DNA of 32,624 nucleotides from Caldifarciminota bacterium (GTDB taxonomy: Bacteria > Hydrothermota > Hydrothermia > B15-G9). The stretch lies in assembly GCA_027037615.1 (NCBI GenBank), contig JALVZN010000072.1, positions 1 through 32,624 on the forward strand, read 5' to 3'. Position numbers and translations under genes: made by a program. Below, piece after piece: positions 3 to 25,018 of this stretch (position 1 is its first letter; each line of letters begins with the position of its first letter). The notes beneath the pieces were generated by a model, which saw only the letters and a program-made list of their open reading frames with translations, had not been told where the DNA came from and did no database searches.

Positions 3-1301
3 AATTCATTCCTCTATAACCCTGCCACGCTCGCATTGCTTTCAAGACCTTATTTCTCCGCAAGCCATAACAAATGGTTGCTTGACTCTTACCAGAGCTA
101 CCTTGGATACGAACGGCCTACAAGGCTAGGGACTTTTGGAGTTGGCGTTGTATATCTGAATCACGGTGCCATACCCGTTTACAGGAACGGGGTGCCTGAG
201 GGCACTGTAAAACCTTACGACCTCGGCCTTGTTGTCGGTTATGGTGGTAGGTTCCATCGCTATCTCGCACTTGGCGCAAACGCCAAGATCTTGCATTCGG
301 ATTACGATGGCTATACAGCGAACGGACTTGCTGCCGATTTTGGACTCGCTGTGCCCGATATTGTCATTGCTCAGAGGGCTGCAGTGAGCGTTGGACTCGC
401 AGTTCAGAATATCGGCACCCAGATCAGATTCCTTAACAGGTCTTACGACCAGCCTTTGACTGTGAGAGGCGGCGTCGCTGTCAATGTGCCTAATCTTGGG
501 CCCGTTGACATCAATCTTGCCGTCGATGCGGTTAAGAAAGTTGATACCGATCTTGGGTTCAGGGTTGGTGGCGAACTCTGGCTCTTTGATGTGCTTGGCC
601 TCAGGGGTGGCTATAATACATCAGCTTCCGTCGATGAGGCTAAGATGAGCTATGGCGTTAGCCTCGTGATCAGAGAGCTCAGACTTGACTACGCTTATGT
701 CGATTACGGTCAAGTCTCTTCACCTACCCATCGCCTTTCCGTCTCTGTTGAGTTGAGCCAGAAAGACGAAATAGCCGGCCCGATCAAGGTCATTATGGAG
801 GACATAAAGCAGCTCAAGAAGGGCCAGGAGCAGATAATGAAAGAACACGAGCAGCTCAATAAGGATATCACCGACATCAAGATGAGCGTCGATGAGATCA
901 GGCAGCTGCTTAAGACCAACCTCCAGACCTATGTGACACCGGACGAGATACTCCATCTGCTCTCCATACATTTTGAGTATGGAAGCTCCGTTGTGCCCAA
1001 CGAGGAGTATCCCAAAATCCTCGAGGCCGCCAGGCTCATTAAGAAATACTATCCGAATAAGACCATCATCCTTGAGGGACATTGCGATGAAGCCGGTAGC
1101 CCTGAGCTCAACATGAAACTCTCGCTTGACCGTGCTGAGTCCGTCAAGAGGATACTCGTTGAATACGGAGGAATACCGGAAGATCAGATCGTTGTGGTTG
1201 GCAAAGGCGAGACAGAGCCACTGACTCATAGGACTGGACCTGGCAATTACGGTATTGAAAACCGCCGTGTTGTGTTCGTGGTGACAAATTCTGCTGAGTA
1301 A
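3..1301 (+). CDS. PorV/PorQ-like outer-membrane barrel fused to an OmpA peptidoglycan-binding domain (5' partial)
   Basis: The frame is open from the left edge; the first visible residues (NSFLYNPATLALL) carry the NPA motif found near the start of PorV/PorQ/UPF0164 barrels, so the true start lies upstream. Roughly the first 235 visible residues are alternating β-strands rich in Gly and aromatics, ending in a strand pattern (LGLRGGYN, LDYAYVDYG, HRLSVSVEL) typical of that family. A Lys/Glu/Gln-rich coiled coil of about 50 residues follows, then an OmpA/Pal domain: GHCDEAGSPELN, LSLDRAESVKRIL and a terminal NRRVVFV, including the Asp and Arg that bind diaminopimelate in OmpA-type domains. Predicted location is the outer membrane with a periplasmic tether to the cell wall. 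PorV is known as the shuttle that hands sorting-domain cargo to the type IX surface machinery; the four cargo-like genes downstream fit that, but this role is inference. The fusion is unusual. Confidence 0.85.
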   Translation, partial: NSFLYNPATLALLSRPYFSASHNKWLLDSYQSYLGYERPTRLGTFGVGVVYLNHGAIPVYRNGVPEGTVKPYDLGLVVGYGGRFHRYLALGANAKILHSDYDGYTANGLAADFGLAVPDIVIAQRAAVSVGLAVQNIGTQIRFLNRSYDQPLTVRGGVAVNVPNLGPVDINLAVDAVKKVDTDLGFRVGGELWLFDVLGLRGGYNTSASVDEAKMSYGVSLVIRELRLDYAYVDYGQVSSPTHRLSVSVELSQKDEIAGPIKVIMEDIKQLKKGQEQIMKEHEQLNKDITDIKMSVDEIRQLLKTNLQTYVTPDEILHLLSIHFEYGSSVVPNEEYPKILEAARLIKKYYPNKTIILEGHCDEAGSPELNMKLSLDRAESVKRILVEYGGIPEDQIVVVGKGETEPLTHRTGPGNYGIENRRVVFVVTNSAE

Positions 1302-1360
1302 TCTATGAACTGTGAAGGAGCGCTTTTAAAACATTTTTATCAAAGTGGAGAAGGGATTGA

Positions 1361-3976
1361 ATGACTGTGAGCGGATTGATGGTTCTGGGGATGCTTATGG
1401 TGTCTCCAGAACTGCCCGGTGGCCCGGATGGATTTGGCTACCGGTGGATACGCTCAGTTGATGCAGGAGGCCCTTCCTTCACATGGATAGACGCAACTTC
1501 GGGACAGAGAATTCTGCTGGGGGACGATCAAACCCGGTGGGTCTCTGTCCCGTTCTCTTTTTGGTTCTATAACGAGGATTTTGCTGACAGCATAGCGGTC
1601 TCATCCAATGGATGGGTGAGTTTCACCACCGCCACGCCAAATGCCCCGCCTTTATCATGGCCGGACAATATTTTCGGTGCTGGTCTCTCCGTTTTCGGAA
1701 CTGACCTTGGGCCGGATACGCTCTATGTTCTCAGGATTGGCACAAAATTGGTTATCGAATGGCTCAACGCTGAACTTGTGGCTGGAAACGGTAGGTACAC
1801 ATTCGAAGTTATCATCGATGCTGCCGATAGCTCCATAACTTTTCAATACCTGTCCCACGAAGGGGCTGATTGGACTGCCTATGGTTATTCCTTCGTTGGG
1901 ATACAGAACAGGGACATAAGCTATTCGCTTTCTGTGTCGTCTGCCCTTTTGAGGGATTCCCTCGCAATCAAGTTCTATTACGAGCCTGAACATGACCTGT
2001 CGGTTTCGATTTTGTATCCCGGAGACGGCTTTCTCCTTCTGGATCAGGGGGCGGATTCGGTCCTGTTTTCATTGAGAAATAACGGCATAACTGAGGCGAT
2101 TCATAGAGCCGTCGTGTGCAGTGTCTCCACGGGTGGCACAACGGTTTTTGTTGACACATTCGATGTGCCGCAGCTCGCTGTTAATTCCTCTTTCGTCGGC
2201 AAGTTTAGTGGATGGCAGAGGGAACCCGGCAGAAGGTATCGCATAAATGTCAGCGTTCAGGAAGACCACGATCCGTATCCTGCAAACAACCGCGATTCGG
2301 TGTCGCAGGTGGTCGGTTTTTTGGCCTCGGATACAATTGCACTCTTTGATGGTGGTGTCAGCGGGGGCGTGTGGTATAGTTCACAATTTCAGGCTTTTGG
2401 AGTTGAGATACATCCTGATACACTTCCGTTTTTGTTGAGGTATGTTGGGGTCTGGCTGCTGTCGCCGGGGGATCCGGGCTGGCCGGGGCCCGATACGACA
2501 GCCGATCCCGCTATTGTCGAGGTATGGATAGGTGATACCATGCCCCGCACCCGTGTCTTAGCCGATACGCTTTTGAGGGATGACATCTGGCCGGGCTGGG
2601 TTTATCTGGTTTTGCCCGATTCTAACATTTTGTGGGGCGATAGATTCTGGATAGCGGTCAGGACAAGGGTCAATTCAAGCTATGGTATCGAAGCACTTGC
2701 TTACGATTCTACATTGAATTACCCTGATGCTCAATGGATTCAAGAGAGGGATGGCAGGTGGCGTAGGGGGGTGTTTGCCGATGGGGATCCCTTGATTTTT
2801 GTTTCAGGTGAGCCGCTGAATCTGCAATTCAGAGGCGACATTGTGCTTAATTACATTTACCCGGCATGGTCTCATCTCATCTTTGCCGGGGCTGATGATT
2901 CTGTGATCGTCGAGGTTGGAAACCTTGGGCCGTATTCGGTGTCTGGCATTTCAATCTATTGTTCGCTGAGCGATAGCGAGGGAGTTGTGCTTGCGGACAC
3001 GGTCTTCATCCCTTCGCTTGCGGCTAACCGTGCTGACACCATTTCTTTTGGCCCTTACATAATTCATTCGGATATGGACAGCTTGGTTCTTAGCTGCAAC
3101 GCTTTTTCCGCTCAGGATTCTGTTCAAGATAACAATCATGTTTTCGCTGTTTTGAGAGCTGTTTCTGAGGCGAACGATACCGTTGTATTCGGGGATGAAC
3201 CGTTATACAACTATTTTGTGCCATCGGACACGAGCCAACTTATTGCGGTCGAAGTCATGTCAGATACTCCTCGCAGTTTCCTGAAATATGTTTCCTTCTG
3301 GCTTGTAACACCCGGAGATCCATGCTGGCCGCCTGAGGATACGACGATCGATCCCGTCCTGCTACAGTTGTGGAAAGGCGATTCGCTGCCCGAAAACCTC
3401 CTCTTTCAGGATACCCTGTGGCGGGATAATGTCCAGCCCGGATGGGTGTATTGGGTCCCGCCTGAAAGTATTTCCCTTGACGACAACATCTGGATAGCCC
3501 TCAAGCTTGCCCTTACAAGCGGCCGCTCCGAAGCGCTTGCGCTTGACTCGACATACGATAACCCAAACTCCGTTTTTCTCTACGCTGATGGCACCTGGCA
3601 AAGAGCCCCTCAGCTTCATGGAGACCCTATCTTGTGGGTTTTCCGAGATGTGAATGGAAATTCTATATCCGAGTCTGGAGGAAACCGCAATGGATTTGAA
3701 GAAGGGTTTGTTGGCTTTCGTGGAGGGGTTTTTAACGACAGGCTGGCGATTAGGTTTTCATTGAAGAGTAATTCCCATGTTGTGTTGAGGATTTACGATG
3801 TGTCCGGCAGGGAGGTTAAGTTCCTTTACGATGGGAGACTGACGGCTGGTGAACACCGATTGTATTGGGATCTGAGAGATAAGTCTGGCCGTCGAGTGGC
3901 GGATGGTATTTATTTCGTATCCCTCGATGTTGGGGACAGGCATTACACGAAGAAATTTGTTATTCTGAAGCCTTAA
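1361..3976 (+). CDS. Large secreted modular protein with GGPD module, duplicated CARDB-type unit and C-terminal sorting domain
   Basis: Product of 871 aa, predicted exported. The ATG follows a GAGAAGGG Shine-Dalgarno stretch and a stop codon immediately upstream fixes this as the earliest start. The hydrophobic N-terminus (about residues 3-16) is short and has no basic residue, so it is a weak-looking signal peptide. Residues about 20-205 form a module opening with GGPDGFGYRW and containing SSNGWVSF. Then comes a duplicated unit: CARDB-like Ig domain (about 208-320) plus a β-domain (about 322-485), repeated at about 487-602 and 603-760; the paired motifs are PGDPGWPGPDTT versus PGDPCWPPEDTT. 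The last 80 residues form a FlgD-Ig/type IX-like sorting domain (LRIYDVSGREV, GIYFVSLDVG, KKFVILKP). No catalytic motif was seen; a structural or adhesive surface role is inferred. It is followed 43 bases later by the next exoprotein, probably in one transcript. Confidence 0.8.
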   Translation: MTVSGLMVLGMLMVSPELPGGPDGFGYRWIRSVDAGGPSFTWIDATSGQRILLGDDQTRWVSVPFSFWFYNEDFADSIAVSSNGWVSFTTATPNAPPLSWPDNIFGAGLSVFGTDLGPDTLYVLRIGTKLVIEWLNAELVAGNGRYTFEVIIDAADSSITFQYLSHEGADWTAYGYSFVGIQNRDISYSLSVSSALLRDSLAIKFYYEPEHDLSVSILYPGDGFLLLDQGADSVLFSLRNNGITEAIHRAVVCSVSTGGTTVFVDTFDVPQLAVNSSFVGKFSGWQREPGRRYRINVSVQEDHDPYPANNRDSVSQVVGFLASDTIALFDGGVSGGVWYSSQFQAFGVEIHPDTLPFLLRYVGVWLLSPGDPGWPGPDTTADPAIVEVWIGDTMPRTRVLADTLLRDDIWPGWVYLVLPDSNILWGDRFWIAVRTRVNSSYGIEALAYDSTLNYPDAQWIQERDGRWRRGVFADGDPLIFVSGEPLNLQFRGDIVLNYIYPAWSHLIFAGADDSVIVEVGNLGPYSVSGISIYCSLSDSEGVVLADTVFIPSLAANRADTISFGPYIIHSDMDSLVLSCNAFSAQDSVQDNNHVFAVLRAVSEANDTVVFGDEPLYNYFVPSDTSQLIAVEVMSDTPRSFLKYVSFWLVTPGDPCWPPEDTTIDPVLLQLWKGDSLPENLLFQDTLWRDNVQPGWVYWVPPESISLDDNIWIALKLALTSGRSEALALDSTYDNPNSVFLYADGTWQRAPQLHGDPILWVFRDVNGNSISESGGNRNGFEEGFVGFRGGVFNDRLAIRFSLKSNSHVVLRIYDVSGREVKFLYDGRLTAGEHRLYWDLRDKSGRRVADGIYFVSLDVGDRHYTKKFVILKP
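1982..3640 (+). repeat. Internal tandem duplication of a CARDB plus β-domain unit (protein level)
   Basis: Two consecutive units of roughly 280 codons align in order: a CARDB-like Ig domain followed by a domain with the landmarks (Y)VGVWLLSPGDPGW / YVSFWLVTPGDPCW, DTLLRDDIWPGWVYLV / DTLWRDNVQPGWVYWV and a closing DGDPLIF / HGDPILW. The DNA has diverged, so this is an old duplication recognisable mainly from the protein. Confidence 0.7.
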
Positions 3977-4019
3977 AATTAGGTATGCTTTTGTTGTCTT
4001 GAAAACAAAGGAGGTTGTT

Positions 4020-7000
4020 ATGCACAAAAAGATTGGGATATTGTTGGTTATAGGTCTATTGGTAGCAGCCACTGGCCTGGCTGCTAAGCCTGATAACGCG
4101 ACCCTTGCTAAAGATTACAAAACGGCTACGGTTGAAGGCTGGATCGGTAAAACCCCTTCCGATGTTAAGGGTAGTGGTTACATAGGATATGCTGACTTCA
4201 ACAATCCTGTTTATTTCGTATGGGGCGGTGTCGAGCGCGGCACATACTTCTACCTTAACGATTTCTCCGGACAGCCACCTGTTATTATTGATACTATCTT
4301 GATGCTTTTCTATGAAGATAGCGCTTACCCATGGCCGGATTCGACTGTTCATATCGTGATATACGGTAGCGACAGCATAACTCCGATCTATACATCTCCA
4401 AACTTTATAGCTCATAGATATCCAGATCCCACTTACTATGTGCCCCCTACTCCGATAACTGTGAATGACAGGGAATTCTACATTATGGTTGTGCCTGAGG
4501 ATACAAGTGGTTTTCCTTCTATACTTTCAGATGATGTGCCGCAGGGTCATAGTTTCTACAGAATGGAGCCTGGAGGAAGCCTCTCTGAATGTTCATTAGG
4601 AGAATATTTCATAGCAGCACATGGGACATGGACCGATCTCAACCACGATGTTGGGATTGCTGATCTTTTGTCTCCGCCTTCTGTTGCCATCAATGGTTTT
4701 GTCTATTCACCGGAGATAAATGTTGTCAATTATGGCCTTGCGAATGAGGTTTTTGATGCAACATTAAAAATCTACGATTCGCTTGGAACTGAGGTGTATT
4801 CAGCTTCTGTATCGGGAGTGGCGATTGATTCGGGTAGTTCCACAGTTGTTACCTTTGATCCGTGGGCAGTGAATTCAACAGGTCATTACGATCTCGTCAC
4901 TTATGTGAGTATGGGAGGTGACGAGGATCTCTCCAATGATACCCTTTATTCCACAGTGGAAGTCGTGGATGTTAATGTTATCTCTACTTTTGAGACTGAC
5001 TCTGGAGGATTTGTCCCCGCTCCTGAAGGTGGATGGCAGTGGGGCGTTGCATCGGTTGGGCCTCCGAATGCGCATTCAGGCACAAATCTGTGGGGGACAC
5101 TGTTGAATGACAACTATCCCAATAATGCCAATTTCTACCTTACAAGTCCCGATCTTATAGCTCAGGGAGATCAGCAGGTTATTGGCTTCTGGCATTGGGG
5201 CGATATTGAGAACCATTATGATGGTGGTAATGTTGAGATATCGACTGATGGTGGTACTACATGGGAACTGATTTATCCTGTGGGCGGATACACGTATAAC
5301 AATGTATATGCGCTTGGTGGCCCAGGGTTCACAGGCGATTTTGATTGGTCATTGGCTGTTTTCCCCTTGAATCTACCCGATGGCACTGTTTTCCGGATCA
5401 GATTGCATTTTGCTTCTGATGTTTCTGTCAATTACGCAGGCTGGTATGTTGACGATCTCTCCGGATATAATGTTGCCCTGCCAAGTTTTGCCCATGATGT
5501 GGGGGTTTCCACTATCGATTATCCATCGCCTCTCCTCGTCAACGATACCTTTAGCGTCAATGTTGGGGTATTCAATAACGGGTCTTCAACCGAAACTTTT
5601 GATGTGACACTTGATATCTATGACGAAAATAAGAGTCTTGTGTATTCAGCAACCAGCACGGTCACAGATCTTGCAGCTGGCGGAAATACCACGGTCGCCT
5701 TCGATAACTGCTCGCTCAGCGAAACCGGGCTTTACCAGTTTGTTACTTATGTGTCTCTTATTGGTGATGAGAATCCCAATAATGACACATTAGTCAGGTC
5801 AGATTTCGCTTTTTCGATAGGTTATGGTTTTGAGGCGGATAATGGCGGCTTTGTTGCCGATCCAGATGATGGATGGCAATGGGGCACTCCCACAAGCGGG
5901 CCTATGGGAGCGCATTCAGGTCAGAACCTGTGGGCTACTGTGCTGGATGGCAATTACGCAAACAACGCTGACTGGTATCTATATTCGCCAGATTTCATAG
6001 CCACAACCGATAACCCCGTTCTGGCGTTCTGGCAGTGGTATAACATCGAGAGTGGATACGATGGTGGCAATGTCTCTATATCTACTGATGGTGGCAACAC
6101 ATGGACATTGATTGAGCCTGTGGGCGGATATGATGACAATTCCATTGTCGGACTTGACGACGAGCCCGGATTCACTGGCAATAGCGGAGGATGGGTGCAG
6201 ACGGTGTTCAATCTCGACGGTGTCACCGCGGGCACGGTGTTCAAAATAAGGTTCCGCTTTGGCTCTGACGGTTCTGTTACCCGCGATGGCTGGTATATCG
6301 ATGACCTTGCAGGGATTGGATTTAACGAATTTGTTGTTGAACATGATGTTCAACCTGTGGCTGTCACAGTGCCAGCGGATATCTGGCCTACATTGCCGTT
6401 CGATATAACCGTGGGTGTGGCGAATGTCGGCCTGTATCCCGAGACATTTGATGTAAGGCTTATTGTTACTGACGCTAACAACAATGTCCTATTTGATCAA
6501 ACTCAATCAGTGACAGATCTTGCAGTTGGTGACACGATGGAGCTCACATACGGAGGCTGTGTTGTACCGTATTACGGTGCATATCATGCCGTGGCTATTA
6601 CGCTCCTTGATGGCGACGATTATAGAGGTAATGATACCCTCGATCAGCCGTTCTCAATGGGATTCTGGGGGAATCCACACATGAAAGGCCCTGATGCGTA
6701 TGGATATTACCTGATAGACAATGAGCTGCCCCGTGGTCCGCAATTCAACTGGATAGAACCGACCGATAGCACCGCTAATGTCGTGACAAAGGGTAAAAGC
6801 AAACCCGATAAAGGCGGAAACAGCATAAATTCATGGGATGACGATTATTTCATTGTGCCTCTTCCGTTCTCGTTCACATTTTATGGAAACGCTTACGACA
6901 CAGCTTATGTTTCCACAAACGGCTACATAGCATTTAGTGGAGGCAGATATACTGCACTTGGAAACATAGCCATACCTAATCCAAGCACCCCGAACGATTT

Positions 7001-10000
7001 CATAGCTCCGTTCTGGGACGATCTCAAGTTCTATGACAACGACTCTGCCCGTCTCGATACGGTTAGCGGCGTTACTCAAGATGGCGTCCATTACTTCGTG
7101 ATCGAATACGAGAATGTGGCTCATTACGGTCGTCAGGGTGAAGTTATGGACTTCGAGGTCATTCTCTATGAGAACGGCGACATACTCGTCCAATATGGCT
7201 CTCTCGGAGACGGCGTTTATAACGACGGTTCGAGCGCCACTGTTGGAATTGAAAACGCTGATGGCACAATAGGACTCCAATACCTCTACAACGGCGATCC
7301 GCTTACCCTGCATGATAGCCTTGCCGTTCTGTTTACTTTGAGCCCTGTTTTCTACCACGATGTGGCACTTGATGCGGTAGTAGTGCCTGAAAATAACGGC
7401 CATTATGTTGCTGGTGAGACCATCCAGCCTGTCGTCAGGGTGAAAAACACGGGTGTTTACCCTGAGGCTGACACATTCGATGTGAACATAGAGATTCAGC
7501 ATGCCAAAGCTGTGGTTGCCAGCTACAGCAAGACCGTTTACCTGTTCCCTGGTGATTCGCTCGATGTGACCTTCGATCCTTATCTCATACCTGAAGAAGG
7601 CGATTACACCGTTGAAGCCTATGTCAGCATGGCGGGCGATGAAGCGCCCGAGAACGATACTCTGGTTACTACATTCTACGCAGAAGGACGCGACGGCTAT
7701 GTCTCTGAAATCGTTGAGCCTGCCGATACCGTCCTGTTCGGCACATCGGTGGCTCCTCTGGTCAAAGTTGTAAACAACGGGACTACGACCGACACATTCG
7801 CCGTAACAATGGCAATTCCGGGCCTCGGCTATCAGGAAGAAGTTGATGGTGTCGAGATCGAAGCCGGCGATACGGCTGAAGTCGCATTCCCATCGGTTAT
7901 CTTCGATCAGGAAGGCGAGCTTGATATGATCGCCTACACCCACATCGAATACGACCTCAATACATCAAACGATACACTTGAGAGACCTGTTTTTGTCGGA
8001 TATCCGGATGTCGGTGTGGACAGCATCATCAATCCGCTTCCGATCACATACACCGAGGGCGATACATTTATCCCTGTCGTGAGGGTGCATAACTTCGGCA
8101 ATGTAAGAGTTAACACTCCGGTTGTTGTCGAGATCTGGCATTCCTATGCGAAAGACAGGACTCTGGCATATGCCGATACGGTAATGGCTGAGGTTCCAGA
8201 AGGCGATTATGTGGATGTTACCTTCAATCAGATCTTCACGCTTGTGGATAGCGGATACTACGAAGTGGATGCGTTCACACTTCTCGACAACGATATGGAC
8301 AACAGCAACGACTCCTCTCAGCTGTTCTTCTCGTCCTTTATTTACAGGGACATCGGCATAGACAATGTTGTGGCTCCTGTGGACTCTTACAACATCTGGG
8401 AAACGGTGATACCTGAGATCGTCCTGCGCAACTATGGGACAAATGAAGCGACATTTACCGCAAAACTCAAGATTTTCCACGAGGGCACGCTTGTGGTTGT
8501 GGACTCCGTCGCAAATATAACGCTCCAGCCTTCCGCACAGACCAACATCCAGTTCGCTGAGTATCAGTTCGAGGCTACTGGAAATTACACCTTCAAGTTC
8601 TGTGTCAAGTACGGCGAGGATATGGACACCACGAACAACATGGTGATCCGGAATGTGTTTGTTGCAGCACATGACATTGCACTTACAGGAGTTGTGGAGC
8701 CGAGCGGCAACCTCTACGAGACTGAAACATGGATTTACCCTGCTGTTAATGTGGTCAATAACGGAAATGTGGCAGAGACCTTCGATGTGCAACTTGCTGT
8801 GCTTGAAAATGGCGTCCCTTACGCCACACTCACGACAAATGTAACCCTGGATGCAGGTGCCAGCATTGTCGCTGCATTCGATTCCGTGCAACTTGCAAGT
8901 GAGGGAGACTATGAGTTCATCTACACAGTGAATGTGCCATACGATACATGTGGCGCAAACAATCAGATCTCGACAGTGGTGACTTCTTCATACCACGATG
9001 TGGCTGTCGCGGAAATACTTGACCTTTCATCTGTAATCTACCATGTTGGTGATAATGTAGAACTTACAGCCGCTTTCGAGAACCTTAAACCATTTGATGA
9101 GAACATAAATGTTGTTGTGGATGTGCGGGTTAACGATTCTCTCGCATTCACCCGCACGATGCCGATCTTCCTCGCCCATAACTCGGTTGATACAGTGGAA
9201 TTCACCGTCTTCACGGTGCCAACTGGTGGATACTACACGGTTGACTTCAGGGCATGCCTGCCGACCGATCATGATACCACAAACAACATGATGACCCGCA
9301 CATTCCTCGTGCCCGAGATGCAGGTCGCTGACTCTGTGCCGATGTTTGAAGACACACTTGGGAACTGGCAGTTTGGCCAACCGACATTGCCCGATGAGCC
9401 GAGCGCATTCAGCGGCGATAACCTTTGGGGCACTGTGCTTGGCGGTTCTTACCAGCCCGACGCCGACTGGACGCTTTACATGAGCGACTGGCTGGATGTC
9501 ACCGGCGATGATCCCGCTGTTGTCTTCTACCAGTGGTATCAGTTTGGCGCAGGTGACGGCGGCTGGATACAGGTCGAGCTTGGAGATGGTAGCATCGTCG
9601 ATGTTACCCCTGTGGGTGGATACAATGGCGAGGTCAACGGACATCCGGCATTCGTTGGGACATCTGATGGATGGGAAGGCGTTGCTATTGAGCTTGGCAA
9701 TATCCTGACTAACGGCGATAGCTTCAAACTGTTGCTGCATTTCCACTCGGACGGCGTCGATGAGGGGCTTGGCTGGTATGTCGATGATATGCAGTTCGTG
9801 CAGGTTTATCAGAGGTTGCCCAACGATGTGGCCGTGAGAGAGCTCTGGGCTCCGACAGCTGCTCAGCCGCTTTATCGTGGTCAGCTTGTCAACCTCTGGA
9901 CGATACTCAGCCTCACTTCTAACACGCCTGCATCGAGGACATTCAGGGTTATTGCCAAGGTGTTCGACAACGACGGCGTGCTCGTCTATAGCGCGAGTGC

Positions 10001-10481
10001 CGTCGTGAGAGGTCTCAATCCTGGCGACATGGACACGGTTTACTTCTCACCCGGATGGATACCGTTCGAGGTCGGCACTTACCGCTTCACAGTGACGGTC
10101 TATAATCTCGGTGATCCCAACATTGCCAACAACATACTTGCTACCAATATCGTCGTTCAGGCGGACAAAGGTGCTCATGAGGATCAGACTTTGCCGGTGC
10201 CTCAAGTGTTCACTCTTGCTAACCTCGCACCCAATCCGTTCTCCGATAACCTCGAGATAACATTCGGAATCCCTAAGGCTTCGCATGTGAGAGTGCAGGT
10301 CTATGATGCCCAAGGTCGTGTCGTGAACGAGCTCGCTAACGGTCAATTCAACGCAGGTTACCATACAATCAGATGGAATGGCAAGAACATGTCTGGCAGG
10401 TCCGTCGGCTCTGGCATCTATTTTGTGAGGATGCAGAGCGGAGACTTCTCTGCTGTCAGACGAGTTGTTCTTGTTAGGTAA
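4020..10481 (+). CDS. Giant secreted protein with about ten CARDB-like repeats, three jelly-roll domains, a GGPD module and a sorting domain
   Basis: The start is placed at ATG 4020 because AAAGGAGG (4007-4014) lies five bases upstream and the protein then begins with a classic signal peptide (MHKKIGILLVIGLLVAATGLA); length is about 2153 aa. An N-terminal β-domain is followed by a ladder of Ig-like CARDB repeats, each opening with a variant of HDVAV/HDVGV; I count ten. Three MAM/cleaved-adhesin-like jelly rolls (about residues 323-490, 604-767, 1776-1930) carry WQWG, HSGTNLWGT, VGGY and GWYVDDL signatures. A GGPD/NIDO-like module sits at about 888-1108. The C-terminus has the canonical sorting-domain pattern (LAPNPFSDNLEITF, VQVYDAQGRVV, SGIYFVRM). 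No catalytic residues were recognised. Likely a surface fibre or adhesin exported through Sec and then a sorting-domain-dependent outer-membrane step. The first third looks more AT-rich than the rest. Confidence 0.85.
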   Translation: MHKKIGILLVIGLLVAATGLAAKPDNATLAKDYKTATVEGWIGKTPSDVKGSGYIGYADFNNPVYFVWGGVERGTYFYLNDFSGQPPVIIDTILMLFYEDSAYPWPDSTVHIVIYGSDSITPIYTSPNFIAHRYPDPTYYVPPTPITVNDREFYIMVVPEDTSGFPSILSDDVPQGHSFYRMEPGGSLSECSLGEYFIAAHGTWTDLNHDVGIADLLSPPSVAINGFVYSPEINVVNYGLANEVFDATLKIYDSLGTEVYSASVSGVAIDSGSSTVVTFDPWAVNSTGHYDLVTYVSMGGDEDLSNDTLYSTVEVVDVNVISTFETDSGGFVPAPEGGWQWGVASVGPPNAHSGTNLWGTLLNDNYPNNANFYLTSPDLIAQGDQQVIGFWHWGDIENHYDGGNVEISTDGGTTWELIYPVGGYTYNNVYALGGPGFTGDFDWSLAVFPLNLPDGTVFRIRLHFASDVSVNYAGWYVDDLSGYNVALPSFAHDVGVSTIDYPSPLLVNDTFSVNVGVFNNGSSTETFDVTLDIYDENKSLVYSATSTVTDLAAGGNTTVAFDNCSLSETGLYQFVTYVSLIGDENPNNDTLVRSDFAFSIGYGFEADNGGFVADPDDGWQWGTPTSGPMGAHSGQNLWATVLDGNYANNADWYLYSPDFIATTDNPVLAFWQWYNIESGYDGGNVSISTDGGNTWTLIEPVGGYDDNSIVGLDDEPGFTGNSGGWVQTVFNLDGVTAGTVFKIRFRFGSDGSVTRDGWYIDDLAGIGFNEFVVEHDVQPVAVTVPADIWPTLPFDITVGVANVGLYPETFDVRLIVTDANNNVLFDQTQSVTDLAVGDTMELTYGGCVVPYYGAYHAVAITLLDGDDYRGNDTLDQPFSMGFWGNPHMKGPDAYGYYLIDNELPRGPQFNWIEPTDSTANVVTKGKSKPDKGGNSINSWDDDYFIVPLPFSFTFYGNAYDTAYVSTNGYIAFSGGRYTALGNIAIPNPSTPNDFIAPFWDDLKFYDNDSARLDTVSGVTQDGVHYFVIEYENVAHYGRQGEVMDFEVILYENGDILVQYGSLGDGVYNDGSSATVGIENADGTIGLQYLYNGDPLTLHDSLAVLFTLSPVFYHDVALDAVVVPENNGHYVAGETIQPVVRVKNTGVYPEADTFDVNIEIQHAKAVVASYSKTVYLFPGDSLDVTFDPYLIPEEGDYTVEAYVSMAGDEAPENDTLVTTFYAEGRDGYVSEIVEPADTVLFGTSVAPLVKVVNNGTTTDTFAVTMAIPGLGYQEEVDGVEIEAGDTAEVAFPSVIFDQEGELDMIAYTHIEYDLNTSNDTLERPVFVGYPDVGVDSIINPLPITYTEGDTFIPVVRVHNFGNVRVNTPVVVEIWHSYAKDRTLAYADTVMAEVPEGDYVDVTFNQIFTLVDSGYYEVDAFTLLDNDMDNSNDSSQLFFSSFIYRDIGIDNVVAPVDSYNIWETVIPEIVLRNYGTNEATFTAKLKIFHEGTLVVVDSVANITLQPSAQTNIQFAEYQFEATGNYTFKFCVKYGEDMDTTNNMVIRNVFVAAHDIALTGVVEPSGNLYETETWIYPAVNVVNNGNVAETFDVQLAVLENGVPYATLTTNVTLDAGASIVAAFDSVQLASEGDYEFIYTVNVPYDTCGANNQISTVVTSSYHDVAVAEILDLSSVIYHVGDNVELTAAFENLKPFDENINVVVDVRVNDSLAFTRTMPIFLAHNSVDTVEFTVFTVPTGGYYTVDFRACLPTDHDTTNNMMTRTFLVPEMQVADSVPMFEDTLGNWQFGQPTLPDEPSAFSGDNLWGTVLGGSYQPDADWTLYMSDWLDVTGDDPAVVFYQWYQFGAGDGGWIQVELGDGSIVDVTPVGGYNGEVNGHPAFVGTSDGWEGVAIELGNILTNGDSFKLLLHFHSDGVDEGLGWYVDDMQFVQVYQRLPNDVAVRELWAPTAAQPLYRGQLVNLWTILSLTSNTPASRTFRVIAKVFDNDGVLVYSASAVVRGLNPGDMDTVYFSPGWIPFEVGTYRFTVTVYNLGDPNIANNILATNIVVQADKGAHEDQTLPVPQVFTLANLAPNPFSDNLEITFGIPKASHVRVQVYDAQGRVVNELANGQFNAGYHTIRWNGKNMSGRSVGSGIYFVRMQSGDFSAVRRVVLVR
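4986..6318 (+). repeat. Two copies of a choice-of-anchor-J/MAM-like jelly-roll repeat (third copy at about 9347-9808)
   Basis: Copy 1 (about 4986-5490) and copy 2 (about 5822-6318) share residues in register: GG(F)V...DGWQWG, AHSG.NLW, GGNV.ISTDGG.TW, EPVGGY and GWY(V/I)DDL. Short exact DNA matches persist (for example CCTGTGGGCGGATA near 5278 and 6118). A more diverged third copy at about 9347-9808 keeps SGDNLWGT, VGGYNGE and GWYVDDM. The copies are separated by CARDB-like units. Confidence 0.75.
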
Positions 10482-10524: not shown

Positions 10525-10549
10525 GAGACATCAAAGGAGGTAAGTGGAT

Positions 10550-13246
10550 ATGCTGAAAAAAATGTTGATAGTATTGGCGGTGGTCGGAATGACCTCGCTG
10601 TGGGGCATAAATGACCCTGAGTTCAACGGGAAGAAGCGCCAGAAGAAAATCTCCCCTGAAATGTTGCGTATCCCTACTGTTAAGAGCTTTCACAAGGGTG
10701 ACTCGAAGTCTGTCGTTATCGACGAGGATTTTGAATCCGGGAGTATTCCTTCCTCATGGACTCAATACCGCACAGGCTGTCCTGAAGGTCCCGGCTGGCA
10801 GATTACAACATATTATGCGCATTCCGGAACTTACTCTGTTTACCACAACGACGATGATGTATCGTATAATAATGATGATTGGCTTGTGCTACCGGCTGTA
10901 ACCATACCTGCTAATGCTGCCTCACCTGTACTGACATTCTATATGATGGTTCGCTGGCCTTCCTATGTGAATTATCACGGCATTTGGGTCTCCACCGGCT
11001 CTCCTGATCCTGAGGATGGAGACTATGTGGAGTTAATTAATTTGAGCACATTCAAACCCAGTGAATTTACCGAGCAGACCATCGATCTTTCAGCCTATGC
11101 GGGACAAACGATTTATCTGGCTTTTCACTATCAGGGGGATTTCGCCAGTGAGTGGTATATCGACGATGTGACAGTGGACGATGGGGCTGTCCCGGGGCCA
11201 GATGTGCTTGTCGTCGACGACGATGGGCAACATCCCAATACATTTGGACGGTTCTTCGCCTATGCGCTTTATTCAAGGGGATACACTTTTGACTACTTCA
11301 GCACCTATGACAGCAGCCGTGCACCTACCCTTGATGAGCTGGAGAATTACAGCGCCGTGATCTGGACGACAGGAGCTACATGGTCTGGAAGTTATACTTA
11401 TCTTGATGATAACCCGGATCTCCTTGGTGATTACATGGCCAATGGCGGCCATGTATGGTTCAGCTCTCAGGACTATCTTTACTGGGTAGGAGAACCGTTG
11501 CCATGGATGCATATTGATGATTATTACAGTGATGCATTCACTAGCAATACACTTCCCGTAAACGGAATTGCAGGAAGCCCAATTGGTGATGGCTTTTCAT
11601 TTGATCTTGAGGCAATGGTTACTAACTATGTGGACGAGATTCTTCCCGACCCAACAGCTCAGGCAGAATTCGAGATTTATGGTTCTCCTGTCGCTATCAG
11701 CTACGATGGCACAAAAAGTGGAAAATTGTTCTTCTCGGCTTTTGTGTTCGCTAACATTTCCGATGAGGCATCTAGAGAAGAGCTGCTGGCGAGGGTCATG
11801 AACTTCTTCGGGATTGAACCTCATCCTGATATGTACAACGCCGGCATAGAGTGGGCAGAAGCTGATAATGGATTTGAAGGCCAAGATGTGGATATTATGG
11901 CCGAGGTTGTCAATTATGGCTTACAGACACTTTATGTGCCTGTTGAGCTTATTATTTACAATTCGAACGATGAGCCTGTGTATTCAGACACTACTTATCT
12001 GACTTTGGATCCTTCTTCTTCTGACACAGTTACTTATGCAGTTGCTGGGTTGCCCAGTGATGTCTATCACGGACATATCTGCACAATCGTCCCGGCTGAT
12101 CAAGATCACTCTACAGATACAGCGTTCATAAACTTCAAGGTGGTCCCCACATTGCAAGCTCCTGTCACCGATAACTTCGATAATCTCAACAACTGGCTTG
12201 AGGGCGGCGATGGCCCGTGGGATGTGATACAGCATGATGGATATATCGAGCTTACGAGAGGAGATTGGGAGGAAGGTAATACCTATATCGTGGGACGCTT
12301 TTACACCGGAGAACTAAACTCTCCAAAACTTGGATTTGCCTGGAGCACGGAGAGCTGCGAGAGCGGAGAATATCTCTATGCCGAAATTTCAGCTGATGGG
12401 GCCAACTGGACGGTTTTGGATTCCATCACTGATGATCATCCATGGGAAAATAAAGAATTCATGTTGCGTGAATACGGCTTCGGTCCTGACGATACGGTTT
12501 ATGTGAGGTTCAGGGCATACATTAGCTCAGATTGGGATCATGCTTATTTAGATTCCGTTTACATGGTTGAGGGACTTCTGCCTTATGATGCGAGCATACC
12601 GGCTCCACCAAACCCGGAGCTGTGGGATTCCACAATAGTTGATACAGCTACTGGCGATACCCTCCCGGTACTGACTTCATTCCTTATGACCCCATCTGTT
12701 ACGATAACCAATGCAGGTGCCCCTGGTGTTGACCCTGCAATCTCGTTCCGCGTATTCTACAAAATCTTCGATCCCAATGGCATTCAGGTCTATTCCCAGT
12801 GGAGGATTTACAGGAATCTCGCTGCCGGTGATACGGTGGAGCTTAGCTTCCCTGGCTTTATACCCACAAGGAGCGGGATTTACAGATTGATTGTGACTGT
12901 CAGGTCGCCTCATGATCCTGCGCTTAACAACAACACATATTCCACGAGGTTCTATGTTCCGCCACACAAAGGTGCCGCAGGTGAAGGTTCTGTCCCCGAA
13001 AAACTCACGCTTAAAGTTAACTCCGGAATTGGTAAACCTGTGATCAACTTCGGAGTGCCGGCCAACACTAAGGTCAGCATTGAAGTGTTCGACATGACTG
13101 GCAGGATGGTTGCCAGACTTGCTAATGGGACATTCAATGCGGGTTATCACACGGTTGAATGGAATGCACCTCGTAGCGGCGTCTATGTGGTCAAACTCAA
13201 AACCGGACTTGGCGAACTCTCCCAGAGGATAGTGACCATCAAGTAA
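10550..13246 (+). CDS. Secreted modular protein: two choice-of-anchor-J domains, Rossmann-like middle domain, CARDB repeats, sorting domain
   Basis: ATG 10550 is preferred over GTG 10544 because AAAGGAGG (10533-10540) is then nine bases away and the protein starts as MLKKMLIVLAVVGMTSLWG, a clear signal peptide; length is about 898 aa. Residues about 55-212 form a cleaved-adhesin/choice-of-anchor-J jelly roll (DEDFESGSIPSSW, SEWYIDDVTVDDG). Residues about 217-426 begin VLVVDDDGQHPN and alternate β and α (NGGHVWFSSQDYLYW), resembling a class I glutamine-amidotransferase-like fold; no catalytic Cys triad is evident, so a binding role is more likely. A CARDB unit, a second jelly roll (about 537-681) and another CARDB unit follow. 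The sorting domain (about 815-898: EVFDMTGRMVARLANGTFNAGYH, SGVYVVKL) closely matches that of the upstream giant protein. Predicted to be surface-exposed. Confidence 0.8.
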   Translation: MLKKMLIVLAVVGMTSLWGINDPEFNGKKRQKKISPEMLRIPTVKSFHKGDSKSVVIDEDFESGSIPSSWTQYRTGCPEGPGWQITTYYAHSGTYSVYHNDDDVSYNNDDWLVLPAVTIPANAASPVLTFYMMVRWPSYVNYHGIWVSTGSPDPEDGDYVELINLSTFKPSEFTEQTIDLSAYAGQTIYLAFHYQGDFASEWYIDDVTVDDGAVPGPDVLVVDDDGQHPNTFGRFFAYALYSRGYTFDYFSTYDSSRAPTLDELENYSAVIWTTGATWSGSYTYLDDNPDLLGDYMANGGHVWFSSQDYLYWVGEPLPWMHIDDYYSDAFTSNTLPVNGIAGSPIGDGFSFDLEAMVTNYVDEILPDPTAQAEFEIYGSPVAISYDGTKSGKLFFSAFVFANISDEASREELLARVMNFFGIEPHPDMYNAGIEWAEADNGFEGQDVDIMAEVVNYGLQTLYVPVELIIYNSNDEPVYSDTTYLTLDPSSSDTVTYAVAGLPSDVYHGHICTIVPADQDHSTDTAFINFKVVPTLQAPVTDNFDNLNNWLEGGDGPWDVIQHDGYIELTRGDWEEGNTYIVGRFYTGELNSPKLGFAWSTESCESGEYLYAEISADGANWTVLDSITDDHPWENKEFMLREYGFGPDDTVYVRFRAYISSDWDHAYLDSVYMVEGLLPYDASIPAPPNPELWDSTIVDTATGDTLPVLTSFLMTPSVTITNAGAPGVDPAISFRVFYKIFDPNGIQVYSQWRIYRNLAAGDTVELSFPGFIPTRSGIYRLIVTVRSPHDPALNNNTYSTRFYVPPHKGAAGEGSVPEKLTLKVNSGIGKPVINFGVPANTKVSIEVFDMTGRMVARLANGTFNAGYHTVEWNAPRSGVYVVKLKTGLGELSQRIVTIK

Positions 13247-13344: not shown

Positions 13345-16300
13345 ATGAGGAGAACGATGTTGATCGTGGCTTTTATGTTGATGATAACTTCATCAATCTA
13401 TGGCGCTGAGATATTGTCCCACAAAGTGGTGCCGACAGAGGTGCCGCTTGATGTCAAAGGTGGTGGACCTGATAACTATGGCTACACATGGCTCGACTCC
13501 AACGATCCCGGAGGCCCTTCTTACGACTGGCTCGAGATTGACCCTGACTCCGGTGGGAGCGGAACGGCCCTCCATTTTTCTCCGGATTACAACGATGGCT
13601 ATGTCTGGGTTGGTCTTGAGCGGCCGTTCTGGTTCTACGGACAGAGATTTGACTCGATAGCTGTGAGCGTGAACGGATGGATCAGCTTTGTCGATGGCGT
13701 TGAGAGCTTCTACGGCACCATACCTTCAACCTCGCAGCCCAATGGTGTTGTGGCGGCTCTGTGGCGAGACCTCGTGTTCTACAACAACTATGGCGACGAT
13801 GACAGCGCTTATGTCGCATACCTGCCTGACCGGCAGCTGACCGTTATCGAATGGAACGAGATATCAAAGCTCGGTTCATGGCCCACCAACTTTACTTTTC
13901 AGATAGTGCTCGATCACTCGGATAACACGATCAAAATCCAGTATGCGCGTGCAACGGACTGGACGGCTGCCCGCCCGGTGACCGTCGGCATAGAGTCACC
14001 TGATGGGACGGATGGGCTCAGCGTGCCCAATCCTGACCGCACGATACACGACGGATATGCCATCAAGTTTATCCCTCCGCCGACCGTTGATACCCTCGAA
14101 TATGACGATGGCGTTGCGACATCGGACTGGGCATGGGATTCAGCTGGCTACGGTTTTGGAGAAAGGTTCGTGCTGCCCGGCCATCCGTTGAACACTGTGG
14201 TCAACGGCGTGTTCGTGTATGTCCCGAACTGGGGTGGCTCATCCGGCAGCTTTACTGTGTTGGTCGTCGATGATGACGGCGTGAACGGGGCTCCGGGCAC
14301 GACTATCTTCCAGACATCGACGGCTGTGACCTCCGGCTCATGGAACTACATCGAACTCGGCGATGTCGAGGATCAAAATGGGATTTTCTATGTGTTTTTC
14401 GTTCAGGAGGATGGAGCGCCTAACTCGCCTGCACTCTCAACTGATTCGCATCCGGACCTGCCTGAAGGGTTTGTCTGGGAGTATCGGAACGGAGAATTTC
14501 GGCTTTCAAGCTCGCGGTTTTTCGGCGGCGATTTCCTGATACGACCCGTTGTCGCTTTTTACCCGCGCAATGTGGACGCCGCTGCTATGTGGATAAACGA
14601 CCAGTATCAGGCCGAACCGTTCTCACCTGTTCCGCTGAGCGGAGTTGTGTCTTACGGAGGCATACTCAATTCCGCATTCTACACTTACATAGATGTCAGA
14701 AATTCAGACGGGCTTGTCGTTTTCCACGATTCGGCGCTTGCCTCTCCTTCCCTGAACGAGCTTTTCACGGTGAATTTCAGAGGCTGGGTGCCCGTTGACA
14801 CCGGGGAATACACCCTGCGCATGTATGTCGATTGCCTCACGGATCCCAACCACGAGAACGATACCGTTTTCTCCGTGATTCGTGTTGTGAATGTGCATGA
14901 GGGCGGCCCTGATTGCTACAATTACACTTTCAAGGATTCCCATGCCCCTGATGGCCCCCAATTTAGCTGGATAGAGATCGCCGGGACGGGTGATCCTTTG
15001 CCTGTCGGTTCGGATAGCTTTGTCAGCGTCGCACTTCCGTTCACATTTCCGTTTTACAGCGGTGAGTTTGATTCCGTCTATGTGAACGCTAACGGAGCCA
15101 TCGGATTTCAGGATGGGAATGTCCCGTCCGAAAACAGCTCCATGGATGAGGCTCCTCCATGGTTGCTGGCCGCTTACTGGGCAGACCTCGATCCCTCGGC
15201 GAACGGAGGGGTCTATTATCGCAGCTTCGACGATAGCGTCGTGTTCGAGTGGAAGGATGTGCCGGAAGCAGGGGAGTGGGGCTTCAATTCCTTTGAAATC
15301 GTGCTCTACTCCAACGGCGACATACAGGTTAACTATCTCAACCTGCCTCGATACAGCGATGAGACAGCGGGCATAAAAGGGGATAGCTGTTATCTGCAGG
15401 TTTTCTACGACGGGTCACCTTATGTGCCGGAAGACAGCATGTCGGTGAGGTTCTACCGCGTGGAGTATGAAGTTGCTGCGACATCGATTCGCTCACCGCA
15501 AGGCCATCTTGTGCCGTGGCGGCCGGTTCCTGTGGTCGGAACGGTCAAAAACCTCGGAAGTGCGATCGCCAATTTCGAGGTGCGTGCTGAGGTTGTGGAC
15601 AGCGCTACGGGGCTTGTGGCGTGGGCTTCGACCAGAACAGTGACAGGACTTGCCACTCTCGAAGAGCGCACGGTCGAATTCGGAGACTTCACTCCGGGCA
15701 GGGATAGCTCCTACACGGTCAGGATTTACACGCAGCTTGTCGGAGACGCCAATCCGCACAACGACACTTTAACGACATCGGCCAACAGCGTCATGAGGGT
15801 CGGCGATCCTGTTTTCGGCCCTATGCTGCTTGACCCGATTACCGGCCAGCACACGCATCAGGCAGTGGAATTCGATGGCAGATACTTCTACATAACCACG
15901 ACAGGCAACACAAATCTGCTCTATGTCGTGGATACGAGCGGCGCCATTCTCAGGGTCATTATCCAGCCCACGAGTGGGGTGGGATGGCGTGATATGGCGT
16001 GGCAGGAGATGGACACCGGCTCAGTCTCCGGCATCATTGACACACTTTATGCGAGCACAGGCGACATGATTGAGAAATTTGCGATTGACCTCAACACGGG
16101 CGAATTGATCTCTTACGGCAACTTCATGGGGCCGATGGGTTATCACAGGGCTCTTGCTTATAGCGTTCAGAGGAGGACATTCTTTGCGGCCGACCTGAAC
16201 TCGCCGATCTACGAGTTCACCAGAGAGGATTCCGTTGTCAGGGTGATGCCGAACGCCCACAACATTGAGGCGATGGCGTGGGATGAGGGCGTCGTTGGTG

Positions 16301-16863
16301 ACACTGTCGGCTATCTCTGGATGGCGGCTGACGAAGAGAACGATTCCTCAAGCCACATTACAGTTTACCAGTTCAACGAGGCAACAGGCACATACACAGG
16401 GCTGGCCATAACCCCGCCGCCGCTCTTTTCACCGTCGGAAAAGGCGAACGGCGTTGCTTTCTGGCGTGATTTCAACGGCTTCTCGACCCTGTTCGTGGTC
16501 GTTGAAGGTGACACGGACTACATAACCGGCTATTTCGTGAGATACGCTGACCAGACGCGTCAGGTTAACCCCTCGGTTGAGGAGGATCAGGTCACCAAGC
16601 CTGTCGCATTTGGAGGCGGCATCAGGAGCAATTTTGTGAGGAATGGGCTGTTGTCCGTTCAGCTTGCCTCACCGCAGTCCATGAAGGCCGTGATCTCGGT
16701 ATACGACATCTCAGGAAGGACGGTTCTGACCAGAACTCTACATGTGAGCGAAGGAGTTGGGACTTATGACCTTGCGGTCAATTCCCTGCCGTCCGGCGTC
16801 TATTATGTGCTTCTGAATTCGCCTCTTGGAAAGTTGAGCTTTAAATTTGTTGTGCTGGAATAG
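13345..16863 (+). CDS. Large secreted protein with two GGPD modules, CARDB repeats, propeller-like region and sorting domain
   Basis: Product of 1172 aa starting MRRTMLIVAFMLMITSSIYGA, a clear signal peptide; AAAGGGGTG (13331-13339) lies just upstream of the ATG. Residues about 39-244 form a GGPD module (GGPDNYGYTW, VSVNGWISF, a Trp-Arg-Asp near VAALWRDL, TVGIESPDG), and a second copy is at about 518-706 (GGPDCYNYTF, VNANGAIGF, LAAYWADLD). The pattern NG.I.F - APFWxDL - FEIVL - YxxL resembles the nidogen NIDO domain, though I only infer that. CARDB-like units sit at about 410-515 and 706-812. Residues about 813-1085 repeat short strands (EFDGRYFYITTTGN, LLYVVDTSGAI, VQRRTFFAADLNS) and look like part of a β-propeller. 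The last 85 residues are a sorting domain (SVYDISGRTVL, SGVYYVLL, KFVVLE). No PNPF motif is present before the CTD. A surface protein without visible enzymatic activity. Confidence 0.8.
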   Translation: MRRTMLIVAFMLMITSSIYGAEILSHKVVPTEVPLDVKGGGPDNYGYTWLDSNDPGGPSYDWLEIDPDSGGSGTALHFSPDYNDGYVWVGLERPFWFYGQRFDSIAVSVNGWISFVDGVESFYGTIPSTSQPNGVVAALWRDLVFYNNYGDDDSAYVAYLPDRQLTVIEWNEISKLGSWPTNFTFQIVLDHSDNTIKIQYARATDWTAARPVTVGIESPDGTDGLSVPNPDRTIHDGYAIKFIPPPTVDTLEYDDGVATSDWAWDSAGYGFGERFVLPGHPLNTVVNGVFVYVPNWGGSSGSFTVLVVDDDGVNGAPGTTIFQTSTAVTSGSWNYIELGDVEDQNGIFYVFFVQEDGAPNSPALSTDSHPDLPEGFVWEYRNGEFRLSSSRFFGGDFLIRPVVAFYPRNVDAAAMWINDQYQAEPFSPVPLSGVVSYGGILNSAFYTYIDVRNSDGLVVFHDSALASPSLNELFTVNFRGWVPVDTGEYTLRMYVDCLTDPNHENDTVFSVIRVVNVHEGGPDCYNYTFKDSHAPDGPQFSWIEIAGTGDPLPVGSDSFVSVALPFTFPFYSGEFDSVYVNANGAIGFQDGNVPSENSSMDEAPPWLLAAYWADLDPSANGGVYYRSFDDSVVFEWKDVPEAGEWGFNSFEIVLYSNGDIQVNYLNLPRYSDETAGIKGDSCYLQVFYDGSPYVPEDSMSVRFYRVEYEVAATSIRSPQGHLVPWRPVPVVGTVKNLGSAIANFEVRAEVVDSATGLVAWASTRTVTGLATLEERTVEFGDFTPGRDSSYTVRIYTQLVGDANPHNDTLTTSANSVMRVGDPVFGPMLLDPITGQHTHQAVEFDGRYFYITTTGNTNLLYVVDTSGAILRVIIQPTSGVGWRDMAWQEMDTGSVSGIIDTLYASTGDMIEKFAIDLNTGELISYGNFMGPMGYHRALAYSVQRRTFFAADLNSPIYEFTREDSVVRVMPNAHNIEAMAWDEGVVGDTVGYLWMAADEENDSSSHITVYQFNEATGTYTGLAITPPPLFSPSEKANGVAFWRDFNGFSTLFVVVEGDTDYITGYFVRYADQTRQVNPSVEEDQVTKPVAFGGGIRSNFVRNGLLSVQLASPQSMKAVISVYDISGRTVLTRTLHVSEGVGTYDLAVNSLPSGVYYVLLNSPLGKLSFKFVVLE

Positions 16864-18683: not shown

Positions 18684-19325
18684 ATGAAAAAGATCGATTA
18701 CGATGGGGTTATCGATTACATAAAAGAGCATCTTCGGAATGTGATTATAGGCGGAGTTGTCGTGCTTGTTCTATTGATCGGCGTTGCTATTGTCGTCAGC
18801 TATCATCCTGCGCCACCGCCCGGAACGCAGTTGAAATACATGCGCGCTATATCTTTGTTTACGATGGGCGATTCCACAGCGGTTGATAGCCTTCTGAGCA
18901 TTGCGGAGGTGGCTCCATCTTCGGTTGAAGGCAAGAGAGCGCTTTACTACCTCGGCGTTGCCTATCTGAAAAAGGGCGACCTGGACGCCGCTGAGAGCTA
19001 CTTTAACAGGTTCCTCAAATCTGGCCTGAAAGATCCATTTATGACTGCGCTCGCATACAACCATCTGGCCACCATTGAAATCAACAAGGGCAAGGTGGAC
19101 AAAGGGCTTGCCTATCTCAAAAAGGCTATGGATGAAAATCCATACACATCTTACAAGGGATTTTACCTCTACCGCATGATAATCATCAACGAAGAGCTGG
19201 GCAATTACAAAGAGGCCTACAAGTTGGCCAGGGAATTTAAGGAAAAATACAAAGATCATCCGCTCTATGTTGATGTAAGTCAGGAGTTAAAATTCCTTGA
19301 AGGCGCTCTGACCTCTCAGGGGTAG
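18684..19325 (+). CDS. YfgM-like single-pass membrane protein with periplasmic TPR domain
   Basis: Product of 213 aa. A short cytoplasmic N-terminus (about 18 residues) is followed by one transmembrane segment (about 19-40, VIIGGVVVLVLLIGVAIVV) with no cleavage site, then a Pro-rich junction and tetratricopeptide repeats over about residues 70-205 (ALYYLGVAYLKKGDLDAAESYFNRF, AYNHLATIEINKGKVDKGLAYLKKAM). The order TM then TPR matches YfgM (TPR_21 family), an ancillary partner of the SecYEG translocon and PpiD in E. coli that helps newly exported proteins. Being first in an operon with BamA and SurA supports an envelope-biogenesis role, but sequence alone does not separate YfgM from other membrane TPR proteins. 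The stop is 22 bases before the clpC start, so the two are surely cotranscribed. Confidence 0.75.
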   Translation: MKKIDYDGVIDYIKEHLRNVIIGGVVVLVLLIGVAIVVSYHPAPPPGTQLKYMRAISLFTMGDSTAVDSLLSIAEVAPSSVEGKRALYYLGVAYLKKGDLDAAESYFNRFLKSGLKDPFMTALAYNHLATIEINKGKVDKGLAYLKKAMDENPYTSYKGFYLYRMIIINEELGNYKEAYKLAREFKEKYKDHPLYVDVSQELKFLEGALTSQG

Positions 19326-19347
19326 CCCTGCGGGAGGTGATCTTAAG

Positions 19348-24074: not shown

Positions 24075-24139
24075 TGAAACGCCTCCCCCAATGGGGACGA
24101 TGATCGAAATAAAATGTTCTTTTAACAGAGGAGGATGAT

Positions 24140-25006: not shown

Positions 25007-25018
25007 GGTGGGGATACC

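Follow-up and report, generated by a model that had tools for sequence, protein, structure and literature searches.

The window analysed here covers bases 1–32,624 of contig 72 (G000:C72) in a metagenome-assembled genome of 2.06 Mb (95% complete), whose relatives carry the label candidate division WOR-3. It begins inside a gene that joins a PorV/PorQ-family outer-membrane β-barrel, a periplasmic linker and an OmpA-type domain in a single chain. We think it probable that, within the type IX secretion system (T9SS), this fusion serves a giant adhesin as its dedicated carrier and is anchored to peptidoglycan. In the mechanism that we propose, the SprA translocon would export a giant repeat adhesin, the product of a gene directly 5′ of the fusion and off this contig, and the PorV/PorQ-type barrel of the fusion would collect the diverged C-terminal sorting domain (CTD) of the adhesin, which would stay on the barrel uncleaved. 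From the C terminus of the barrel, a short coiled-coil linker would lead to an OmpA domain gripping the meso-diaminopimelate (meso-DAP) of the cell wall, and the adhesin would thereby be fixed statically to the envelope. The proposal draws on the domains of the fusion, its conservation as one clade, a PorV-like structural model, residues matching those of PorE, an exclusive pairing with the adhesin, the diverged CTD, a wider pattern of CTD genes upstream of related barrels, the presence of PorU and SprA, and precedent for a cargo-then-carrier gene order; we infer the physical binding, the transport role, the lack of cleavage and the static anchoring.

The accepted view for Bacteroidota is that PorV handles type A cargo of every kind, that specificity for particular cargo is confined to PorP/SprF barrels, and that a separate protein, PorE, provides the anchor to the wall. 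What is new here is that the tightest partner of the fusion lies 5′ of it, off the contig; the gene order is that of SprB and SprF, but the barrel is of PorV type and is joined in a single protein to a wall anchor like that of PorE. The PorV-type barrels described below look cargo-specific, with the wall anchor built in. If this is true, the PorV branch has also given rise to carriers specific for their cargo, the fusion is a naturally occurring single chain on which to test whether a T9SS adhesin becomes static through anchoring to peptidoglycan, and the locus provides a way into the surface biology of a phylum without cultured members.

A PorV-family barrel and a predicted wall anchor in one chain

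The fusion occupies an open reading frame at positions 3–1301 of the forward strand (432 amino acids), open at its 5′ end, where the contig begins inside the gene. Judged from full-length relatives, about 60 N-terminal residues, comprising the signal peptide and the start of the hatch, lie off the contig. The FadL-like barrel (3–752, residues 1–250 of the cut frame) matches the PorV-family model NF033709 with 131.6 bits (E 4.5e-38), above the curated cut-off of 90 bits. It is followed by a periplasmic linker, read from the sequence (753–970), with heptad (a/d) spacing at 855–911: in residues 285–303, LNKDITDIKMSVDEIRQLL, the hydrophobic positions are spaced 4-3-4-3-4, as judged by eye. The linker motif DITDxKxSVDEVK is kept among fusion relatives. 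An OmpA_C-like peptidoglycan-binding domain completes the chain (972–1241; PF00691 at residues 324–413, 69.4 bits, E 3.5e-19, cut-off 27.2). The sequence-only reading of this DNA had described a barrel, a coiled coil and a Pal/OmpA domain in one chain, and this layout is confirmed.

The barrel scores below the equivalog cut-offs for both PorV (NF033710, 41.3 of 250 bits) and PorQ (NF033711, 80.9 of 220 bits), and in a tree of barrels it sits outside the canonical PorV clade. We rejected the fusion as the main PorV of this genome, as the canonical PorV is a separate gene on contig C31 and the fusion falls in another clade. Membership of PorP/SprF was likewise rejected, as the profile search gave no match of the fusion to PF11751. 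With the PorE model NF052230, the match was confined to the OmpA part and reached 36 of 600 bits, which falls short of PorE membership.

To represent the complete chain, we used an AlphaFold2 model of a full-length relative (L067, from genome G142), built from a 34-row alignment with a mean predicted local distance difference test (pLDDT) score of 81. The model starts with a short helical hatch at the N terminus, followed by 14 strands, a linker helix and an OmpA domain; pLDDT is mostly above 85 in the barrel, and the linker helix is of low confidence. Its best two PDB matches are both Flavobacterium johnsoniae PorV in translocon structures (8gl6_F and 6h3i_F; E 1.9e-17 and 1.8e-16; template modelling score normalised to target of 0.68–0.71). 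The modelled barrel is therefore closest to PorV among solved structures, as the sequence-only reading had supposed, rather than an unrelated barrel.

The OmpA part of the model resembles OprF and related peptidoglycan-binding domains. PorE binds peptidoglycan through the side chains D576, N584 and R591 (PMC7192894). The window protein has D362, N370 and R377 at the corresponding positions, with spacings of 8 and 7 in both proteins, and these residues are invariant across the aligned fusion relatives. The domain has the conserved Asp, Asn and Arg that bind DAP, and we predict that it binds peptidoglycan.

Eight full-length relatives (476–507 amino acids, 38–53% identity), each with signal peptide, barrel, linker and OmpA domain, are encoded in other WOR-3 genomes of several families, and three further cut copies occur in two additional WOR-3 genomes. 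Nine full-length or nearly full-length copies, besides fragments, were thus found among 147 WOR-3 genomes, and these nine form one clade on the barrel tree (support 100/99). Because the same barrel–linker–OmpA chain is kept in eight other genomes, the fusion is neither due to chance nor an artefact of assembly but a conserved protein. A pattern scan across the genomes of 84,980 species, which detects close relatives only and on which the claim of absence elsewhere rests, confined the fusion to WOR-3, with one record labelled Latescibacterota. A literature search outside subscription journals and preprints found no paper on PorV–OmpA fusions or on T9SS in WOR-3.

Two contigs of genome G054 (contigs 22 and 98; L075:1-263 and L076:1-260) both begin at one and the same codon within the OmpA domain of the fusion, encode near-identical residues and then diverge. 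Together with the start of the window contig inside the fusion gene, this suggests repeated copies that break assemblies.

Pairing with an upstream giant adhesin

A giant repeat adhesin family is encoded directly 5′ of the fusion in all relatives with assembled upstream DNA (6/6), the adhesin gene ending 6–90 bases before the fusion gene. At two more loci, the last 31 and 45 residues of the adhesin are present at the contig edge. Identity across the adhesins is 33–43%, rising to 83% within a family. The complete adhesin of genome G135 (3,067 amino acids) has a YVTN β-propeller head and that of G142 (5,449 amino acids) a calcium-type DxDGDG head, each followed by the same NEW3-like immunoglobulin (Ig) repeats; the heads vary, and the stalk and tail are conserved. 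Across the 147 WOR-3 genomes, the C-terminal 243 residues found matches at E <1e-100 solely at fusion loci. The relatives therefore show the SprB–SprF gene order, with the cargo gene immediately 5′ of the carrier barrel gene as one cognate pair; in the window this order is not visible.

The last 90 residues of the adhesin form a diverged T9SS CTD. When aligned with WOR-3 type A CTDs by hhalign, they matched over the whole domain at the extreme C terminus (97.1% probability, E 5.4e-11), and an iterated CTD profile matched the adhesin C terminus at E ~1e-16 to 1e-18, with zero matches in 62 proteobacterial open reading frames. The type B CTD model TIGR04131 did not match the adhesin, and a PDB sequence search with the adhesin C terminus returned nothing significant.

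PorV-family barrels and T9SS components in WOR-3

The NF033709 family is large in WOR-3: four genomes have between 11 and 20 members each. Where the gene upstream of a barrel was visible and ran in the same direction (60 barrels), we scored that gene for a CTD at its end. A CTD gene lay directly upstream of 0/13 barrels in the canonical PorV clade (support 100/100) and of 38/47 non-canonical PorV-family barrels (Fisher p 4.8e-7, computed at the lower count of 36), the genomes being related and the counts hence not independent. G142 alone had an upstream CTD gene for 8/15 barrels (p ~4e-7 at 5.5% background). CTDs occur in ~4–6% of genes (75 matches in the window's own 2.06-Mb genome, 150 in G142), a rate that uses a gene number estimated from genome size. 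PorP/SprF exceeded its cut-off in 7/147 WOR-3 genomes and type B CTDs theirs in 1/147; both are close to absent in the phylum. Both PorU and SprA are encoded in the window's genome, and they occur in nearly all of the set formed by this genome and 11 relatives.

We suggest, with slightly more doubt than confidence, that WOR-3 runs a third T9SS carrier–cargo pairing. Expanded PorV-family barrels, in place of PorP/SprF, would each be encoded behind a type A-like CTD cargo and act as its dedicated carrier, and the periplasmic domains added in different clades (coiled coil with OmpA, carboxypeptidase-regulatory-like domain (CRD) with OmpA, or TPR) would determine the place and manner in which the cargo is retained. 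In this scheme, the gene in the window would be the wall-anchored member that displays giant adhesins.

Other barrels of the family also carry added domains. A second clade, separate from that of the fusion, has CRD and OmpA domains behind the barrel (579–607 amino acids; L031:1309-3129, L036:1351-3120 and L113:3713-5449); this pair of domains equals the C-terminal half of the PorE layout, and these barrels likewise lie directly behind a CTD gene. Further WOR-3 barrels are fused to TPR arrays (L026:607-2442, L030:1354-3294 and L028:1240-2427) or carry PEGA-like domains (L064:1420-3195 and L066:577-2475), the PEGA type branching beside canonical PorV. An odd case is L116:4188-5564, a PorV/FadL-like barrel with a FlgD_ig (CTD-like) domain, a cargo-type domain, in its own C-terminal part.

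Comparison with known carriers and anchors

In F. johnsoniae, type B cargo depends on a PorP/SprF carrier of its own, the product of the gene that follows, and remains attached to that carrier; in five operons there is also a PorE-like protein, which is proposed to fasten the complex to the wall, whereas mobile adhesins such as SprB are without it (PMC12618676, PMC9143113). The SprF carrier has been shown to export and hold SprB in this species (PMC9143113, PMC12618676, PMC12635249) and is disulfide-bonded to GldK in gliding cells (PMC12635249). PorU and PorZ illustrate that some type A-like CTDs remain uncleaved (PMC11285876). Because the conserved, exclusive neighbour of the fusion is the upstream adhesin and the downstream CTD genes vary, the right comparison is with SprB–SprF(–PorE) and not with the general PorV shuttle.

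As in SprB–SprF, the gene for a giant repeat adhesin that ends in a sorting domain is followed at once by the gene for an outer-membrane barrel. Unlike in SprB–SprF, the barrel belongs to the PorV/PorQ family, the CTD is type A-like and diverged rather than of the TIGR04131 type, an OmpA anchor is fused to the barrel, and GldK, the disulfide partner of SprF, was not found above cut-off in 12 WOR-3 genomes. The combination of cargo, carrier barrel and OmpA-type peptidoglycan anchor recalls PorE–PorP–PG1035 of Porphyromonas gingivalis and the PorE-like operons of F. johnsoniae, down to the same three peptidoglycan-binding side chains (PMC7192894, PMC9143113). PorE, however, is a lipoprotein in its own right that contains TPR, propeller and CRD domains, whereas the fusion has its anchor in the barrel chain and none of those domains. 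With PorV and PorQ the fusion shares the NF033709 family and the 14-strand FadL-like fold, and PorV is its best PDB match; it differs from them in falling under both equivalog cut-offs, in its linker and OmpA domain, and in being encoded with its own adhesin. Similarly, it resembles OmpA, OprF and Pal in its C-terminal OmpA_C domain with conserved DAP-binding residues, but its barrel is of the 14-stranded PorV type, whereas that of OmpA has 8 strands.

Alternative roles of the fusion

Several results weigh against a wall-anchored carrier dedicated to this adhesin. Curated T9SS CTD models miss the adhesin CTD (TIGR04183 gave no match at E up to 5), which also weakly resembles FlgD_ig domains, and a PDB structure search with the adhesin C terminus returned generic Ig-like matches with poor superposition. 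The assembly of the window's own genome yielded no adhesin C terminus at E 1e-8 or better; because of this, and because the contig starts within the fusion, the pairing in this genome is drawn by analogy with eight others, and the adhesin gene would lie just off the window contig. Two genomes of the same genus as the window's genome lack the fusion, and its distribution is therefore patchy, reflecting loss or transfer. No PorK/GldK was found above cut-off in any of the 12 genomes; the WOR-3 T9SS may draw its power from diverged or other components, and the failure to detect GldK is in keeping with an adhesin that is static and does not glide. Finally, kinship among the genomes inflates the tests on upstream CTD genes.

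The fusion could instead be a shared, wall-fixed docking or attachment-complex barrel, serving the CTD exoproteins encoded 3′ of it, or every T9SS cargo, in the manner of a PorQ or PorV with a built-in tether and not one adhesin alone, a role that we consider unlikely. Consistent with it, four CTD genes lie directly 3′ of the fusion in the window, the gene 3′ of the fusion bears a CTD in most of the eight relatives' genomes, orthologues of the first downstream gene occupy the same place in four genomes (G142, G140, G141 and G054; 33–36% identity), and the barrel scores higher with PorQ than with PorV. The downstream genes nevertheless differ by lineage, and G135 has no CTD gene directly 3′ of the fusion, whereas the upstream adhesin is constant and exclusive. 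The sequence-only reading had proposed a wall-anchored cargo shuttle or attachment site in line with four downstream exoproteins ending in sorting domains. All four sorting domains were recovered, the anticipated co-occurrence was found in that the fusion adjoins CTD genes in related genomes, and the proposal was right in kind; the most specific partner, however, is the upstream adhesin, off the contig, and not the downstream genes.

A barrel with a C-terminal OmpA domain is also the classic layout of OmpA and OprF, and the OmpA-domain matches are strong, so that a structural outer-membrane-to-wall tether with a FadL-type barrel, which would have no part in cargo handling and would only share its transcript with surface proteins, must be considered. 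We judge this improbable: nine copies and fragments among 147 genomes make a patchy distribution unlike that of a general housekeeping tether, the pairing with one adhesin family is strict, and the barrel is of the PorV family and not of the OmpA/OprF type. A FadL/TodX-like hydrophobic small-molecule transporter with a wall anchor is very improbable and was rejected on structure ranking and gene context, since FadL and TodX rank next after PorV in the PDB search but FadL (E ~3e-8) is far weaker than PorV (E ~2e-17), and the neighbours are surface proteins with no adjoining catabolic genes. A dedicated carrier of the upstream adhesin thus remains our preferred reading.

Genes downstream of the fusion

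The four open reading frames 3′ of the fusion, all on the forward strand, exceed the cut-off of 23 bits for the T9SS type A CTD model TIGR04183. The first encodes an exoprotein with a C-terminal CTD (1361–3976, 25.1 bits). The second (frame 3999–10481) probably starts at an ATG at 4020, preceded by AGGAGG, and encodes a large exoprotein with MAM-like and CARDB Ig-like domains and a CTD (4020–10481; PF20773 E 1e-18, TIGR04183 43.7 bits). The third (frame 10544–13246, likely ATG at 10550) encodes an exoprotein with a choice-of-anchor J/cleaved-adhesin domain and a CTD (10550–13246; NF038128 E 1e-17, TIGR04183 38.3 bits), and the fourth an exoprotein with a NIDO-like domain and a CTD (13345–16863; NIDO E 1.4e-6, TIGR04183 31.2 bits). 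The four-gene cargo run stops at 16863, not at 10481.

After the cargo cluster and a permease, positions 18684–26317 of the window encode a TPR protein, a ClpB/ClpC-like AAA ATPase, a BamA-type Omp85 protein and two SurA-like peptidyl-prolyl isomerases, mostly functions of outer-membrane biogenesis. Elsewhere in the same genome, locus L005 (G000:C88:723-4061) encodes a large surface protein, with an open frame of 1775 amino acids, that carries DUF11 domains and two OmpA domains.

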